Part shown: positions 19,816-24,526 of the stretch, in pieces
How the letters are laid out: every line of letters starts with the position of its first letter
Position numbering within the stretch: position 1 is the stretch's first letter
Origin: a virus
Virus record (IMG/VR): IMGVR_UViG_3300042465_002759
Span: 1-28,217 of that record
Direction: 5' to 3' (one strand)
DNA: 28,217 nucleotides
The notes under the pieces: generated by a model
Database searches by the model: none
Seen by the model: the letters and a program-made list of their open reading frames with translations, nothing else
What the model was told of the DNA's origin: nothing
Translations under genes and position numbers: made by a program

Positions 19816-20473
19816 CAGTCTGCTACACTCAACATTCACACTCGTCGGGATGACGACAAACCATTACTTTCACGGTCGTACCCTCGTTGCACAGGGCGGG
19901 ACAATCATCCACGGAAACGTGGTTCGATGAACTATTAACATGGTTCAAGCAGCGTGATGAACGTCAACTCATTAAAATACTGGTGTCGGCTAAAACTCTT
20001 GGCTACGGCGACCTGCTCCCAGGAGCGAACCGTGGGGGGAGCAAACACCATCACTCTTTGGCCGCCATCACCCAAACAGATACACACAAGTGTATATATC
20101 TCCCAACACGATACAAACCCGAAACCACACACAGTAGTCAACCCACCACCCACCTCCCAAGTGCAAGGGTCAACCACTCAGAGTGACCAACAAAACCAAA
20201 TATCGACACAAGAGATTATAGATATATAGGGGGGGCGGCTGGCTCGGCATACCCCTAGTCGAGATATTAGGTGCTGGGTGCTTGGTGTGAGTGTTTGCGG
20301 TCTGCCGGCGTTGCGGTTGTTGTTTGGTTTGGCCGGTCTAATGGGTGGGGGCTACCCGATACGGCGCGGCAAGTGGCCTATGGGCTGCGGAATTGGTAAA
20401 GATCGTGAGTGATCGCCTAGACGTGGCTCTAGTTTGTGGTTGGTTTGGTGTTTGACTTGCGGCTAGATAGCAC

Positions 20474-20506
20474 AATGCCCGCCGGCGGGGGGTGCGGGCG
20501 GGCATT
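20474..20506 (-). terminator. GC-rich hairpin after the clamp-like gene (possible terminator)
   Basis: AATGCCCGCC (20474-20483) and GGCGGGCATT (20497-20506) make a perfect 10-bp stem with a 13-nt loop, 35 bp after the stop of the clamp-like gene. There is no T tract on the minus strand, but stems of this kind without a U tail are thought to act as terminators in Actinobacteria. It could also be a protein-binding site. Confidence 0.55.
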
Positions 20507-20541
20507 GGTGGCCGGTGTTCCGGCGTTGGTGGTGTCTGGTG

Positions 20542-21168
20542 TTACTGGGTGCGTGTTGGCATTACTAGCACTTGGGTTGTGCTGTTGGGTGTTGTGATCG
20601 TGTATATGATCGGCTTGGTGCTGGTGCTGTAGTTGGTGAGTGTTGCGGGTTGGTCGTTGTTGGCGGCCTGTTTGGTGGTTTTGGCTATGCGTTCGATTTG
20701 CCATTGGGCGAGGCTGAACGGTTCGAACGTGTCCGGCGTTGTGTTTTGTGCTGCTGTCCAGATTGCGCCGGTGTTGGGTGTTTCGTGTTGTGGGTTGTTG
20801 CCAGCGTAGGTTTGGCCTTCGTCGGTGATGAGTGTCCACACTTCCGAGACAATGTTTGCGCTAAGTGTGGCGGTTATTTGTCCCGCACGTTTTCCGGCTA
20901 GTTTGGCTGCTGCTGTGAGTGCTTTTGACACTTCGCTCGCGGGTAGTGTGAACGGTAGCGGGGTGTTGTTGTTGGTGTTTGTGCTGATGTGTCTAATCGC
21001 TGCGTAACTGTCGCAACACTCAACTACTCCGCCGGTGATCGTGGCCAGTTGTAGTGCTGGTCTGGTTGGTTCGGTGCTGGCGTACGGTGTGACGATTGCG
21101 AACACTTGCGCGAGGTCTTTTAGTGTGCCGGTGATCTGTCCTAGTTGGGTTTTTTGGTCGTTGCTCAT
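20542..21168 (-). CDS. Possible compact sliding-clamp-like (DnaN-like) protein (208 aa)
   Basis: The ATG at 21168 overlaps the upstream TGA and has AAGGAGAG as Shine-Dalgarno. Several stretches resemble domains II and III of bacterial DNA polymerase beta clamps in order: RPALQLATITGGVVECCDSYAAIRH (like the ...TDxxR.A strand; only the order matters), PFTLPASEVSKAL, EVWTLITDEGQTYAG, FSLAQWQIERIA, and a C-terminal KPIIYTI ... QVLVMPTR (about 185-206), similar to the YxxMPxR end of beta clamps. At 208 aa it is about half the usual 370. If it is a clamp it would have two domains per subunit and would tether a polymerase to DNA. It is the last gene of the early cassette. The assignment rests on pattern reading. 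Confidence 0.55.
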   Translation of the reverse strand: MSNDQKTQLGQITGTLKDLAQVFAIVTPYASTEPTRPALQLATITGGVVECCDSYAAIRHISTNTNNNTPLPFTLPASEVSKALTAAAKLAGKRAGQITATLSANIVSEVWTLITDEGQTYAGNNPQHETPNTGAIWTAAQNTTPDTFEPFSLAQWQIERIAKTTKQAANNDQPATLTNYSTSTKPIIYTITTPNSTTQVLVMPTRTQ

Positions 21169-21371: not shown

Positions 21372-21979
21372 TGGTTGATCGTTTCTGCTATTTGTGCGCG
21401 GGTTTCTTGGTGGCGGGTTTGTTGATATTCGCGTGACCAACTTCCCCAGTTGGCGCGGCCTGCGTCGGTTTCGTCGGCTACGCCGGCGGCCATAACTTTT
21501 CTGGTGCGCTCGGTGATCAGTTCGGCTAGTGTTCTTTCGCCGGTTTCGCAGGATTGGTACTCGAAACAAGCCAACGCGCCGAACACGTGACCAAAATCTG
21601 CGAACCTGTCGCGGCATATTCTGCGGTAGGTGTAGTCAGCCGGCAGATATGAGATCATCCCGCCAATTTGCTGTGCGTTGGTGTCGCTGTATCGTGCCGC
21701 AAGGCTCGCACAGTTGGCCGCGATTAGTTCGCGCCCAATTAGCGTTTCACGGTCTGCGCGGTTTCCCAAGTGTGCTAGGGGTTGTCCGTTGGGCAATGTT
21801 ATTACCGCGTAGCCGTTTCGACGTTCGATGAGTTCGTTTATTTCGGCGGTGTATATGGTCGGCTGGTTGGCTGGTAGGTATATATAGAGCGGGTTTATGT
21901 GGTCGCGGTTGTAGTCGCGTTCGGTGGTGGCCGATACGATTAGGTCAATTAGATCGGTGTCTACTTGGTATGCGCTCAT
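21368..21979 (-). CDS. Conserved hypothetical protein (203 aa)
   Basis: An ATG at 21979 overlaps the previous TGA in an ATGA junction. An in-frame ATG five codons earlier (21994) is also possible, and neither has a strong Shine-Dalgarno. The protein is mixed alpha/beta: an acidic N-terminus, IYLPANQPTIYTAEINELIE, AVITLPNGQPLAHLGNR, a helical centre (ETLIGRELIAANCASLAARY), YRRICRDRFADFGHVFGALACFEYQSC, and a polar C-terminal helix. The regular Arg/Asp spacing in the centre looks structural. I recognise no family or catalytic motif. It is part of the coupled early cassette downstream of the 22280 promoter. Confidence 0.68.
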   Translation of the reverse strand: MSAYQVDTDLIDLIVSATTERDYNRDHINPLYIYLPANQPTIYTAEINELIERRNGYAVITLPNGQPLAHLGNRADRETLIGRELIAANCASLAARYSDTNAQQIGGMISYLPADYTYRRICRDRFADFGHVFGALACFEYQSCETGERTLAELITERTRKVMAAGVADETDAGRANWGSWSREYQQTRHQETRAQIAETINQ

Positions 21980-22215
21980 TGTGTCACAGTCCATTTCGTT
22001 ATTTCTCTAATGACTTTGGCTAATTCTTTTTCAATCCGGCTTAGTTCGTTTAGTAGGTAGTCGGTGTAGTCGCTGGTTGGTGCGTGGCTGGTGCTGGTGG
22101 TGTCGTTGTTGTCGTTTCTGATCGCGTCTAGAAGTAGATCGCTGGCGCGGTGGTGGTCTCCGCCACATATAAGCCGGTTCATTTGTAGCGCGATTTCTTT
22201 ATAGTTTATTGGCAT
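21976..22215 (-). CDS. Small hypothetical protein, first gene after the iteron-associated promoter (79 aa)
   Basis: The ATG at 22215 follows a leader in which GGGAG (Shine-Dalgarno) sits in the loop of the palindrome at 22222-22237. The 79-residue product has an N-terminal helix (INYKEIALQMNRLICGGDHH), a short polar Asn/Thr linker, and a C-terminal amphipathic helix (LLNELSRIEKELAKVIREIT) that could form a coiled coil. It is the promoter-proximal gene of the unit made of this gene and those ending at 20542. A regulator that binds the repeats upstream would be a reasonable guess, but no DNA-binding motif is visible. Function unknown. Confidence 0.68.
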   Translation of the reverse strand: MPINYKEIALQMNRLICGGDHHRASDLLLDAIRNDNNDTTSTSHAPTSDYTDYLLNELSRIEKELAKVIREITKWTVTQ

Positions 22216-22221
22216 AATTTG

Positions 22222-22237
22222 ACAGTCTCCCAACTGT
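22222..22237. repeat. 16-bp palindrome containing the Shine-Dalgarno (copy 1)
   Basis: ACAGTCTCCCAACTGT on the plus strand is ACAGTTGGGAGACTGT in the transcript, a 5-bp stem with GGGAG in the loop. It ends 6 bases before the ATG at 22215. An identical copy precedes the ATG at 24004. Confidence 0.8.
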
Positions 22238-22267
22238 GGCGCGCTCGTTGTTTTCGTGCGCTTTATG

Positions 22268-22296
22268 ATTAGATCATATTTGTGGCACGTTGTCAA
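22268..22296 (-). promoter_or_regulatory. Consensus-type promoter with TTGACA and TCTAAT
   Basis: On the minus strand TTGACA (22291-22296) is separated by exactly 17 bp from TCTAAT (22268-22273), one mismatch to each of the sigma-70-type -10 and none to -35. It faces the 79-aa gene at 22215, giving a leader of about 45 nt. The -10 is part of GATCTAAT, a sequence that recurs twice in the repeat array just upstream (22357-22364 and 22390-22397), so a protein that binds those repeats could also cover the -10. Confidence 0.75.
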
Positions 22297-22347
22297 GTCT
22301 TTTTATTATTTATTTTTGGCGGGGTGTGCTGGTGTGATCGTTGGCCA

Positions 22348-22435
22348 TAGATCGACATTAGATCGGCGGCTAGTTGTGACTAGATCGGAATTAGATCACT
22401 CTGCCGGCACGGTCACTAGATCGGCACCAGATCGA
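22348..22435. repeat. Iteron-like array: three 19-bp repeats with paired GATC
   Basis: Three direct repeats lie at 22348-22366, 22381-22399 and 22417-22435, reading TAGATCGACATTAGATCGG, TAGATCGGAATTAGATCAC and TAGATCGGCACCAGATCGA on the plus strand. Each contains two AGATC boxes whose GATC cores are exactly 11 bp apart (22350/22361, 22383/22394, 22419/22430), about one helical turn. Spacers are 14 and 17 bp. A further half-site, ATTAGATC (22268-22275), overlaps the -10 of the adjacent promoter. The array is in noncoding DNA. It could be an origin iteron set or an operator array. Confidence 0.75.
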
Positions 22436-22502
22436 ACACGGGCGGGCATTGGTGACGCGGTGTCGGGTTTGTCGGCGGTGTAGTCGGTTGTGGTGCCGGT
22501 AG

Positions 22503-22540
22503 CGGTAGTGGTAGCCGTTGGGAGTGGTCTGCCACTACCG
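22503..22540 (-). terminator. Hairpin after the 56-aa membrane gene (weak terminator)
   Basis: CGGTAGTGG (22503-22511) and CCACTACCG (22532-22540) are a perfect 9-bp inverted repeat with a 20-nt loop, starting 7 bp past the stop of the membrane gene. A competing stem AGTGG/CCACT (22523-22536) has a 4-nt loop. No T tract follows, so termination is only possible. Confidence 0.35.
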
Positions 22541-22547
22541 GTACTTG

Positions 22548-22718
22548 TTAGCGGCGGTTTTGTTGGTGTCGGTAGGCGAGATGTACGAACGGGTAGATCG
22601 AGATGAGCATTGTTGCCCACCAGATGTAGCCGGCGTCGGCACCTACTGTCGCGGCACATATAAGTGCTGTGATTATGGTGGTGGTAGTGGTAGCGCGAAA
22701 TATGATGCTGTCGGTCAT
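22548..22718 (-). CDS. Small two-helix membrane protein (56 aa)
   Basis: An ATG at 22718..22716 overlaps the TGA of the Cys-rich gene upstream (ATGA), and the frame ends in TAA at 22550..22548, giving 56 residues. Residues about 12-28 (TTTIITALICAATVGADAG) and 31-49 (YIWWATMLISIYPFVHLAY) are two hydrophobic helices separated by a short turn, with a basic end (HQQNRR). The arrangement resembles a hairpin membrane protein with both termini on the same side. It is the last gene before the noncoding iteron region. Function unknown. Confidence 0.65.
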   Translation of the reverse strand: MTDSIIFRATTTTTIITALICAATVGADAGYIWWATMLISIYPFVHLAYRHQQNRR

Positions 22719-22948
22719 TGTGCCGGACAGTCAGAATACGGGTTTTCGTTACCTTCGTTGTCCTCGCACGAACACCAACTGAATATCGCTACTTGTCGTT
22801 CGTGGGTGAGATCGACCATATCGCCCCAGTCGTATGATCGTTGTGACGGGTCAGTTAGACAGTCTGCGCATAGTTCGCTTAGCCCAACTCTAGGCACATC
22901 AAAGTGCGGGCAGAACCCCCATTGTGCTACGAATTGTTTTGTTTTCAT
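22715..22948 (-). CDS. Cys-rich hypothetical protein (77 aa)
   Basis: The ATG at 22948 overlaps the previous TGA and is preceded by AAGGACAACC, a clear Shine-Dalgarno. Six cysteines lie at 13, 27, 30, 59, 61 and 74, with His15 near the first; the pairs C27-x2-C30 and C59-x-C61 could bind zinc. The rest is acidic and aromatic (SYDWGDMVDLTHE). It is one of at least four Cys-containing small proteins in this cassette. A structural zinc site in a small protein-protein adaptor is plausible, but no family is recognised. Confidence 0.68.
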   Translation of the reverse strand: MKTKQFVAQWGFCPHFDVPRVGLSELCADCLTDPSQRSYDWGDMVDLTHERQVAIFSWCSCEDNEGNENPYSDCPAQ

Positions 22949-23244
22949 TGGTTGTCCTTTATGTATTGCCAGAATGCCGGCGTGGTTGTGTCTTGTGGTT
23001 GGTAGGCGTTGTTGTTTTCATCGGCGTATTGGCTGCGCTCGCTGTCTGTCATTGTTTCCCAAGTGTCACAGTCATCTTGTGTCCAGTCGGTTGTGCTGAT
23101 CAGTGCTATGCGTGTCGCGTCGCCATACGTGCCTTGTTCGGTATCTAGGTACAAGGTATGCGGGTAGTAGTCGTTCATACTGTCGGTATGCCGGTTTTGC
23201 CCAAGTATGTCGTCGGTGAATTGTTGTAATGCGCGTAAGTTCAT
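22945..23244 (-). CDS. Acidic hypothetical protein (99 aa)
   Basis: The ATG at 23244 is preceded by ATGGAGACAGCACA, with GGAGA as Shine-Dalgarno, and overlaps the TGA of the 52-aa gene. The protein is acidic and rich in Asp, Thr and Gln. A central beta segment (HTLYLDTEQGTYGDATRIAL) is followed by DWTQDDCDTWETMTDSERSQ, an acidic helix. The pattern LDTEQGTYGDA...TTDW is familiar to me from small actinophage proteins of unknown function. Acidic small early proteins can mimic DNA and inhibit host enzymes; that is speculation here. Confidence 0.7.
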   Translation of the reverse strand: MNLRALQQFTDDILGQNRHTDSMNDYYPHTLYLDTEQGTYGDATRIALISTTDWTQDDCDTWETMTDSERSQYADENNNAYQPQDTTTPAFWQYIKDNQ

Positions 23245-23399
23245 TGTGCTGTCTCCATTTCGTGTAGTTGAGTGTGATATTCCAAGTCATCGGTTTCCCA
23301 ATAGACGTAGATCGTGCCGCAAGTTTGGCATTGGGCGCAAGGCGTACCGGCTAGTTGTGATCGGTAGTAATGCCAAGCGGGTGCTGTAGTGGTGGCCAT
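23241..23399 (-). CDS. Small zinc-finger-like protein (52 aa)
   Basis: The ATG at 23399..23397 overlaps the preceding TAA (TAATG), and the TGA at 23243..23241 overlaps the next ATG (ATGA), giving 52 residues. Cys21, Cys24 and Cys27 (CAQCQTC) are followed by a Tyr/Trp-rich strand and His42 and His46 (YHTQLHEM). This arrangement can form a small treble-clef or C2H2-like zinc site. A basic N-terminal YYRSQLAG could contact nucleic acid. Both coupled junctions and the intact zinc ligands favour a real gene over other frames in the same stretch. Confidence 0.68.
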   Translation of the reverse strand: MATTTAPAWHYYRSQLAGTPCAQCQTCGTIYVYWETDDLEYHTQLHEMETAQ

Positions 23400-24004
23400 T
23401 ATTCCCCCCAGAACTCTGTCGGGGCATACGTGCCGTTTTCGTTGAACCGGCGCGGCAGGTTGTTGTCAAGGTATTCTACTGCTGCGTCAATGCTGGTTAG
23501 GTTTTCGATCTCCGCGTAACCTGATCGTGCTAGTTCGCGGCATAGATCACGGAATTGTTTGCCAAACAATTCGGTGGTGGCCTTGTCTGCGTCTACCTCG
23601 TATCCGCCTTCGTCATAACTGAACAATGAGACAGTCATACAGTGTTCGTGGCTGTAGTGGTTGCCGTGACTATTGCGCGTAAACGTGGCGGTGCTTGCGC
23701 CGTGCCAGTTCACGTTGGGCGCGTCATCGCTGTTGAGTGTGCCGTAGATCGCAACCCCGTCTCCTTGACAGTTTGACAGTGACCATTCGATAGTAAGACC
23801 AACACGCTTGGTCAATTCTTTTTTGCTGATCTCTCCGTCGTATGTGCCAGTGAGCGCGGAATACAGTTCGCCGTTCAGATGATCGGTGATCTGGCTGCTG
23901 TCAATGTAATCGTAAAGATCGGTGCGTACTTGTTCTAACGCGCCCGCCTTATCGGGTAATTCACGTATCGTAAATACGTTACGGGTAACGGTTATTGGTT
24001 TCAT
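23399..24004 (-). CDS. Conserved hypothetical early protein (201 aa)
   Basis: The ATG at 24004 directly follows the palindrome ACAGTTGGGAGACTGT, which contains the Shine-Dalgarno GGGAGA. An in-frame upstream codon at 24016 lies inside that palindrome and is rejected. The protein has an N-terminal strand-helix section (VTRNVFTIRELPDKAGALEQ), a basic helix (SKKELTKRVGLTIEWSL), CQGDGVAIYGTL, a His-rich strand (NSHGNHYSHEHCMTVSLF) and a C-terminal helical region. Clustered histidines plus Cys in NHYSHEHC could bind a metal, but I know no matching enzyme. It is first in its unit after the 24060 promoter. Confidence 0.72.
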   Translation of the reverse strand: MKPITVTRNVFTIRELPDKAGALEQVRTDLYDYIDSSQITDHLNGELYSALTGTYDGEISKKELTKRVGLTIEWSLSNCQGDGVAIYGTLNSDDAPNVNWHGASTATFTRNSHGNHYSHEHCMTVSLFSYDEGGYEVDADKATTELFGKQFRDLCRELARSGYAEIENLTSIDAAVEYLDNNLPRRFNENGTYAPTEFWGE

Positions 24005-24020
24005 ACAGTCTCCCAACTGT
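24005..24020. repeat. 16-bp palindrome containing the Shine-Dalgarno (copy 2)
   Basis: Exact second copy of ACAGTCTCCCAACTGT, here directly against the ATG at 24004. It follows a CCCCG/CGGGG hairpin (24023-24037) in the leader of the 24060 promoter. Confidence 0.8.
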
Positions 24021-24045
24021 TCCCCCGTTATGCGGGGCTGGTAAG

Positions 24046-24074
24046 AGTATGACCTATTGCCGGCACAATGTCAA
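24046..24074 (-). promoter_or_regulatory. Promoter with TTGACA and CATACT
   Basis: TTGACA (24069-24074) and CATACT (24046-24051) lie 17 bp apart on the minus strand, three bases after the stop of the 42-aa gene. Like the promoter near 22280, the -35 is followed by NNGTGCC. The transcript's leader would hold a CCCCG/CGGGG hairpin (24023-24037) and then the palindrome at 24005-24020 just before the ATG at 24004. Confidence 0.65.
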
Positions 24075-24077
24075 GGA

Positions 24078-24206
24078 TTATTTTAGATAATTTTTTGCCC
24101 ACATAGATAACAAGTGTTCGATCTGGTCATCAGTCCAGTCGGCCAACGGATTATCGCCGGCACGGTACGGATCAGTGATGTCAAACAATGACGGTTGATC
24201 GTTCAT
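24078..24206 (-). CDS. Very small acidic protein (42 aa)
   Basis: An ATG at 24206 overlaps the previous TGA (ATGA), and the frame ends in TAA at 24080..24078, only three bases before the -35 of the 24060 promoter. The 42-residue product is MNDQPSLFDITDPYRAGDNP then a helix with WTDDQIEHLLSMWAKNYL. The QPSLFD segment resembles the short QxxLF/QLSLF clamp-binding peptides used by proteins that dock on beta sliding clamps. This is a striking similarity given the clamp-like gene in the same cassette. Function otherwise unknown. Confidence 0.6.
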   Translation of the reverse strand: MNDQPSLFDITDPYRAGDNPLADWTDDQIEHLLSMWAKNYLK

Positions 24207-24526
24207 GCGCGCCGCCAAACACGAACAGGTCGAGAGTGACACGCTACACGCGCCGACGGTTGGTAAGTGTCGGTAGGGCAGATCAGTCCGTCGGCAGCAA
24301 CTTGTCGAAGTACGCCACCTATCGCACGGGGTTCGTGTGGTGTCGGTAGTGCCGCGTTTTCGAGTGCCTGCCAAATGTCATCGGTAGTGAATGTGTCGGT
24401 AGTGGTAGCGATTTGTACGATGACGCTGTAACACGATGTGAGCCATGTTTGGTCAGCGTTGTTGGTAACGGTAGCGATTGCCTGGTTTTTGGCTTCGGTA
24501 GCGGCGATGATGTCGAGTAGGTTCAT
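24203..24526 (-). CDS. Winged-helix-like hypothetical protein (107 aa)
   Basis: An ATG at 24526 overlaps the upstream TGA (ATGA). An in-frame ATG three codons earlier is also possible. The first half is a helical region (AATEAKNQAIATVTNNADQT). The second half, TDDIWQALENAALPTPHEPRAIGGVLRQVAADGLI followed by PTDTYQPSARVACHSRPVRVWRR, has helix-turn-helix-wing spacing and a basic C-terminus. I recognise the pattern PHEPRA...VLR...DG.I.PT..Y..S.R...H.RPVRVW as a recurring hypothetical protein of actinophages. DNA binding is inferred from the fold pattern, not known. Confidence 0.7.
   Translation of the reverse strand: MNLLDIIAATEAKNQAIATVTNNADQTWLTSCYSVIVQIATTTDTFTTDDIWQALENAALPTPHEPRAIGGVLRQVAADGLICPTDTYQPSARVACHSRPVRVWRRA

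Follow-up and report, generated by a model that had tools for sequence, protein, structure and literature searches.

An optional array of 11-bp GATC repeats upstream of a conserved phage promoter and hairpin-bearing leader

Phage promoters with a switch that senses GATC methylation include that of Mu mom. In the gtr system of P22, which relies on OxyR and Dam, two GATC pairs lie 13 bp apart (PMC2909390). Streptomyces PhoP, a regulator of the OmpR family, binds two to six tandem 11-nt direct repeats consisting of core and weaker units (PMC7866108). Repeated sites are also found in mycobacteriophages as stoperators, which are dispersed over the genome (PMC9283540). The array studied here shares with the PHO-box arrays of actinobacterial response regulators of the OmpR/PhoB family, such as PhoP, its tandem 11-nt direct repeats, variable copy number, strong and weak units and position upstream of a promoter, but its unit, GATCTARTNCC, is another sequence and its promoter is a phage promoter.

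The array was found in a virus record of 28,217 bases (the window, meaning the whole stretch of DNA that was analysed), in which the main genes are on the minus strand in the order RecE-like exonuclease, single-strand annealing protein, RusA-like resolvase, WhiB, a block of small genes, terminase, portal and tail genes. The WhiB gene (PF02467) indicates an actinobacterial host, and the closest annotated terminases are those of Streptomyces phages, with only about 26% identity. The protein encoded at 20542-21168 matched a phage DNA polymerase processivity factor family weakly (phrog_947, E 0.03). Megablast and blastn searches against 50,697 phage records detected no relative, and GTDB genomes scanned by terminase yielded neither a prophage nor a host link. 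Relatives were gathered via the terminase, resulting in 80 IMG/VR loci, about 10 of which belong to the same close clade as the window. A PF00589 (tyrosine) integrase was not found in 12 records of the family, and the phages therefore look lytic. When IMG/VR was scanned with the exact repeat unit, 11 matches were obtained, which is by estimate about chance level, except for the match in a true relative (L007, identical to L051 and L094 and called L051 below).

The array is situated in a gap of 332 bp between a gene ending at 22548 and a gene starting at 22215. Within the gap follow, in the order of the coding (minus) strand, a hairpin (22499-22544), the GATC array, an A-rich stretch, the promoter P2, a leader of about 50 nt with two hairpins and the ATG at 22215. 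The array itself (22334-22435, minus strand) consists of degenerate 11-bp direct repeats with the coding-strand unit GATCTA(A/G)TNCC and harbours seven GATC cores in 98 bp (22336, 22350, 22361, 22383, 22394, 22419 and 22430). The core at 22336, which is conserved in L051 and L111, was absent from the preliminary description, while the three GATC pairs 11 bp apart reported there were confirmed: the window has exactly three copies of GATC-N7-GATC, all of them in the array (22350-22364, 22383-22397 and 22419-22433). It had been considered that such repeats might often arise by chance, and here the array held up. Shuffled windows contained on average 0.19 such pairs and none of 100 reached three, and none of 600 Markov-simulated genomes (order 2-4) matched the density of seven GATCs or had three such pairs within 80 bp. 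The array is the most 6-mer-repetitive 102 bp of the window, and no other stretch of this length has five copies of one 6-mer. The motif GATCTARTNNCC is confined to one locus of the window, and the genome-wide number of GATC is ordinary (141 observed vs 151 expected). Judged against local composition alone, the repetitiveness stands out clearly for the window and L051 and only weakly for L018 and L111.

The spacings between successive GATCs are 11, 25, 11, 22, 11 and 14 bp. Four of the six are multiples of 11, with a random-placement probability of about 6e-5 in a post hoc test, and in our reading of the sequence the unit missing from the 22-bp gap is present in degenerate form (AACTAGCCGCC). 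A spacing fixed at 11 bp holds for the three pairs of the window, but relatives also show spacings of 12, 20 and 25-29 bp. The pairs had been called helically phased as well. With the promoter GATC as reference and 10.5 bp per turn, the computed helix phase bears this out for the two proximal pairs, which are on one face (phase 0.43-0.62), but not for the third pair, which is opposite (0.0-0.05). The array as single-stranded DNA gave no folding signal (z -0.9), and no terminator-like site was found. One weak promoter-like site was seen on the plus strand.

P2 (22268-22296, minus strand) has the form TTGACA-N14-TGATCTAAT, with TTGACA at 22291-22296, a 17-bp spacer and the extended -10 TGA-TCTAAT at 22268-22276; the array lies 40-140 bp upstream of the -35. 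Directly upstream of the -35, an A-rich stretch (22300-22317, minus strand) was found, which might be UP-element-like judging from its sequence; relatives have a similar AT-rich stretch whether or not they carry the array. The sequence TTGACA-N14-TGATCTA[AC]TCA is present in nine relatives, and the homologous place carries TTGACA-N14-TGATCTAATCA in L014, L015, L016, L018, L020, L051, L098 and L103. The counterpart in L111 is TGATCTACTCA, and L017 has a different -10. As described before, the ATTAGATC at 22268-22275 and the -10 of the minus-strand TTGACA promoter overlap. The proposal that the array and the promoter share this half-site could not be upheld, as TGATCTAAT is P2's own extended -10 and is kept in L015, L016, L020, L098 and L103, all of which are without the array.

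The P2 leader was found in 11 phages, namely the window, L051, L018, L111, L014, L015, L016, L017, L020, L098 and L103. In these phages P2 and the leader are conserved and the distance from P2 through the leader to the ATG is nearly fixed (48-60 nt), the first gene being variable. Four of them have the array, namely the window, L051 (8 GATC), L018 (5) and L111 (5). L014 retains a remnant (2), and a scan for the conserved array-promoter junction gave no further carriers. The other six (L015, L016, L017, L020, L098 and L103) harbour a small ORF, M2 (MTYLIQIQTAAGQ...), at the position of the array. The array is missing even from phages whose terminase is 97-99% identical. It is thus optional, and P2 with its hairpin-bearing leader is the conserved part. 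Relatives of M2 are also found directly upstream of P2-like promoters in L033, L046, L047, L048 and L050, with terminase identities down to about 80%, suggesting that M2 is probably ancestral and the array derived; this would mean that the array replaced M2, rather than that parallel losses took place. Upstream of M2 (L015:7475-7550, L016:7370-7430 and L103) we observed a perfect CGAAC-N4-GTTCG, which is the form of actinobacterial LexA boxes. Next to it are promoter-like sequences that diverge and overlap, and an ATG that looks leaderless.

Behind P2, the window and L051 encode a protein of 79-84 aa (21976-22215, minus strand, 79 aa in the window). This slot is occupied by ArdA, a type I anti-restriction protein, in L018 and L015, by a 203-aa protein (MSAYQ) in L016, L098, L103 and L111, by a 135-aa protein in L014 and L017 and by a 91-aa protein in L020. 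The ArdA of L018 (G005:27394-27993) matched PF07275 over the cut-off (E 3.6e-20; 73.6 bits vs a cut-off of 27), and ArdA relatives were found in L015, L026, L034, L038, L048, L050 and L068. For the 79-aa, 135-aa, 203-aa and M2 proteins, none of the libraries tried gave a family match over the cut-off. As in T7 ocr and the ardA of conjugative elements, ArdA in L018 and L015 is directly behind a strong promoter; unlike at these early anti-restriction loci, the promoter and hairpin leader here are fixed and the gene behind them can be swapped, and in the window this slot holds the 79-aa gene. That this gene also counters restriction is a guess from its position.

In addition, the sequence AGCT is absent from the window (0 vs 83 expected) and occurs 0-1 times in L015, L018, L020, L051 and L111, while it is present in L014, L016 and L017, which suggests an AluI-type restriction pressure on part of the clade. 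L089 (12,339 bases) has no GATC, AGCT, CCGG or CGCG, and other relatives are without TTAA or CCGG, the avoided sites differing by sub-lineage. A C5-cytosine DNA methyltransferase (PF00145) is encoded in L111 (10024-11622), with homologues in L015, L016, L019 and L051 but not in the window or L018. Together, the absence of AGCT and of other sites and the C5-methyltransferases indicate that restriction is plainly a force on these phages.

The preliminary description proposed that a cooperative DNA-binding protein occupies the array and blocks its own promoter, and named relatives that keep promoter and gene without the repeats as evidence against this. Such relatives exist: ArdA follows P2 in L018 with the array and in L015 without it, and MSAYQ does so in L111 with the array and in L016, L098 and L103 without it. 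Autoregulation is not supported, since the first gene differs among the array phages (79-84 aa in the window and L051, ArdA in L018 and MSAYQ in L111) and its product is therefore not a common array-binding repressor. The idea of a cooperative protein-binding array, on the other hand, remains the best available reading. We tentatively propose, at a confidence a little short of calling it probable, an accessory, fast-changing operator array for one, probably host-encoded, regulator acting at P2 on the interchangeable first gene. Several copies of the regulator would bind head-to-tail in 11-bp steps and adjust the output of P2, and in this sub-lineage the array would have taken the place of M2. 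Protein binding, the type of regulator and the direction of its effect are what we infer; the array with its conservation and turnover, the conserved promoter and leader, the swapped genes and ArdA in two relatives are what was observed. Tandem 11-nt direct repeats near a promoter, as found here, are the arrangement of PHO-box-like operators, and the geometry resembles that of the sites of OmpR/PhoB-type response regulators.

A host origin of the regulator is probable because no phage gene tracks the array. We found no gene confined to the array-bearing phages and no OmpR-type domain in the phages; WhiB is the only transcription factor recognised in all of them, in 12 of 12 regardless of the array. 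Known boxes (OxyR, LexA, DnaA and, with an assumed consensus, PhoP) were not matched above chance. For PhoP we scored GTTCA-N6-GTTCA, which we assume to be the consensus unit, and obtained a best match of 7/10 (p=0.44). Several further observations weigh against an operator: relatives that have no array retain P2 together with the same genes, the third pair faces the opposite side of the helix, repetitiveness relative to local composition is weak in two of the array phages (L018 and L111), and the cores are conserved only modestly above background. In the comparisons of L111 with the window and L051, 20 of 20 aligned positions of the GATC cores were identical, compared to 81-83% elsewhere. In most comparisons with L018 the cores were not better conserved than the rest, partly because the L018 alignment is poor. 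The L111 comparisons are modest evidence for selection on the core.

The operator is only moderately ahead of a reading in which the array is a functionless, turning-over repeat that fills the gap left by the loss of M2, so that only promoter and leader matter. We consider this less probable but a serious possibility. Copy number and spacing are variable, with duplications of 11 bp and 47 bp: exactly one 11-bp unit is missing in L111 compared to the window, and L051 has a duplication spaced by 47 bp, which shows that the array turns over. It is nearly completely lost in L014, other short repeats are found at the same position in L038 and L014, and promoter and genes persist without it. On the other hand, such a neutral repeat would not be expected to keep its GATC cores intact in the aligned L111 units, nor the proximal spacings of 22 and 14 bp, which are the same in the window, L051 and L111.

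A switch in which adenine methylation of the GATC pairs blocks a regulator, as in P22 gtr, seems unlikely. The arrangement is reminiscent of one, with three GATC pairs upstream of a phage promoter and one GATC in its -10 region. Moreover, P2 drives an anti-restriction gene in some relatives, mom counters restriction like ArdA does, and the restriction pressure is plain from the missing AGCT. However, the pairs are 11 bp and not 13 bp apart, a Dam-type enzyme (PF02086) was not found in the phage records and an OxyR site over the GATCs was not above chance (best 7/10, p=0.29). GATC is also neither avoided nor enriched genome-wide, and the conserved core reaches beyond it to GATCTA. If a host regulator or DNA methylation does gate the expression of an anti-restriction gene, the array would matter for that reason.

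It had also been suggested that the repeats are iterons of a replication origin. Direct repeats beside an A-rich stretch, which would serve as unwinding element, and a GC-skew minimum within about 2-3 kb fit such an origin, which we nevertheless regard as very improbable: none of the proteins examined was recognised as a replication initiator, DnaA boxes were at chance level (p=0.55) and the array is absent from close relatives as judged by terminase. GC skew was rejected as evidence for an origin, because the skew turns at the terminase in all the complete-length genomes that were examined, whether or not they have the array. The flip in sign lies just upstream of the terminase (20000-21000 in the window and at homologous places), although the main genes run in one direction. 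Operators of an immunity repressor, like the stoperators of L5-type mycobacteriophages, are the least credible explanation. Repeated asymmetric sites with one overlapping a promoter are indeed found here in an actinophage, but they are direct repeats at 11 bp with GATCTARTNNCC at a single locus instead of dispersed, the 12 records have no tyrosine integrase, no HTH_3 protein was over the cut-off and no repressor was recognised.

The result obtained for the leader is stronger than that for the array, and the promoter and leader deserve more attention than the array. The P2 leader contains hairpin 1 (22241-22261, minus strand; GCGC-A-CG...CG-A-GCGC) and hairpin 2 (22222-22237, minus strand; ACAGU-UGGGAG-ACUGU), which ends the 50-nt leader just before the start codon and has a covarying stem and an invariant UGGGAG loop holding the Shine-Dalgarno sequence. 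This hairpin occurs twice in the window. The second copy (24005-24020) belongs to P1, a promoter and leader of the same build (24002-24055, minus strand) before the gene at 23399-24004 (phrog_5162). This family, of unknown function, was the sole match of a 205-aa protein. The hairpin was also found in L014-L020, L033, L038, L046-L050, L054, L103 and L111, and Rfam had no family match at 21900-24400. Among the 11 leaders of the clade, three of the five stem pairs were changed on both sides, with a covariation score of 0.649 compared to 0.162 after shuffling (0 of 500 shuffles reached it). When P1 and P2 leaders from across the wider family were included, giving 14 distinct stems, changes on both sides were seen at each of the five pairs, and 94% of the cells pair, compared to 56% when shuffled and at most 46% when slid. 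Part of this set was collected by searching for stems around a UGGGAG loop, and the unbiased evidence is therefore the gene-anchored listing. There, the hairpin precedes MSAYQ in L016, L098, L103 and L111, where this gene comes first, and is missing from it in the window, where MSAYQ comes second. Similarly, the 135-aa protein has it in L014, L017, L046 and L047 but not in L020 and L051. These results indicate that the hairpin belongs to the promoter and leader and not to the gene.

The locus is thus better seen as a conserved platform of promoter and leader than as a self-repressing array. Genes are exchanged behind this platform at the start codon, and at least some of them serve counter-defence. 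New anti-restriction genes can be sought by taking whichever gene comes first after such a leader, and the Shine-Dalgarno hairpin with its covariation lends itself to clean tests as an RNA element. T4 RegB was considered as a model for the hairpin. It cleaves GGAG where translation is initiated, but such sites are usually protected by structure (PMC3014915), and RegB is kept as a lead only. One could imagine a standard expression socket in one lineage of lytic actinophages, consisting of a strong promoter and a double-hairpin leader that offers the Shine-Dalgarno sequence in a fixed UGGGAG loop on a freely changing stem, behind which anti-restriction genes are swapped. A dedicated factor would read the loop and make translation of early counter-defence genes switchable, and the GATC array would add a methylation-responsive or host-signal input in one sub-lineage. 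We put this forward as a speculative and rather improbable scheme.

A further hairpin follows the upstream gene (22548-22718) at 22499-22544 on the minus strand (MFE z -3.9). Its loop, CUCCCAAC, is complementary to the Shine-Dalgarno loop of hairpin 2 and reads CUCCCAA(CGG/GCU) in the window and its homologues. The complementarity to the Shine-Dalgarno hairpin extends over 10-11 nt in six of the 11 phages and over 6-8 nt in the other five, including the window, so that on a read-through transcript this loop could mask translation.
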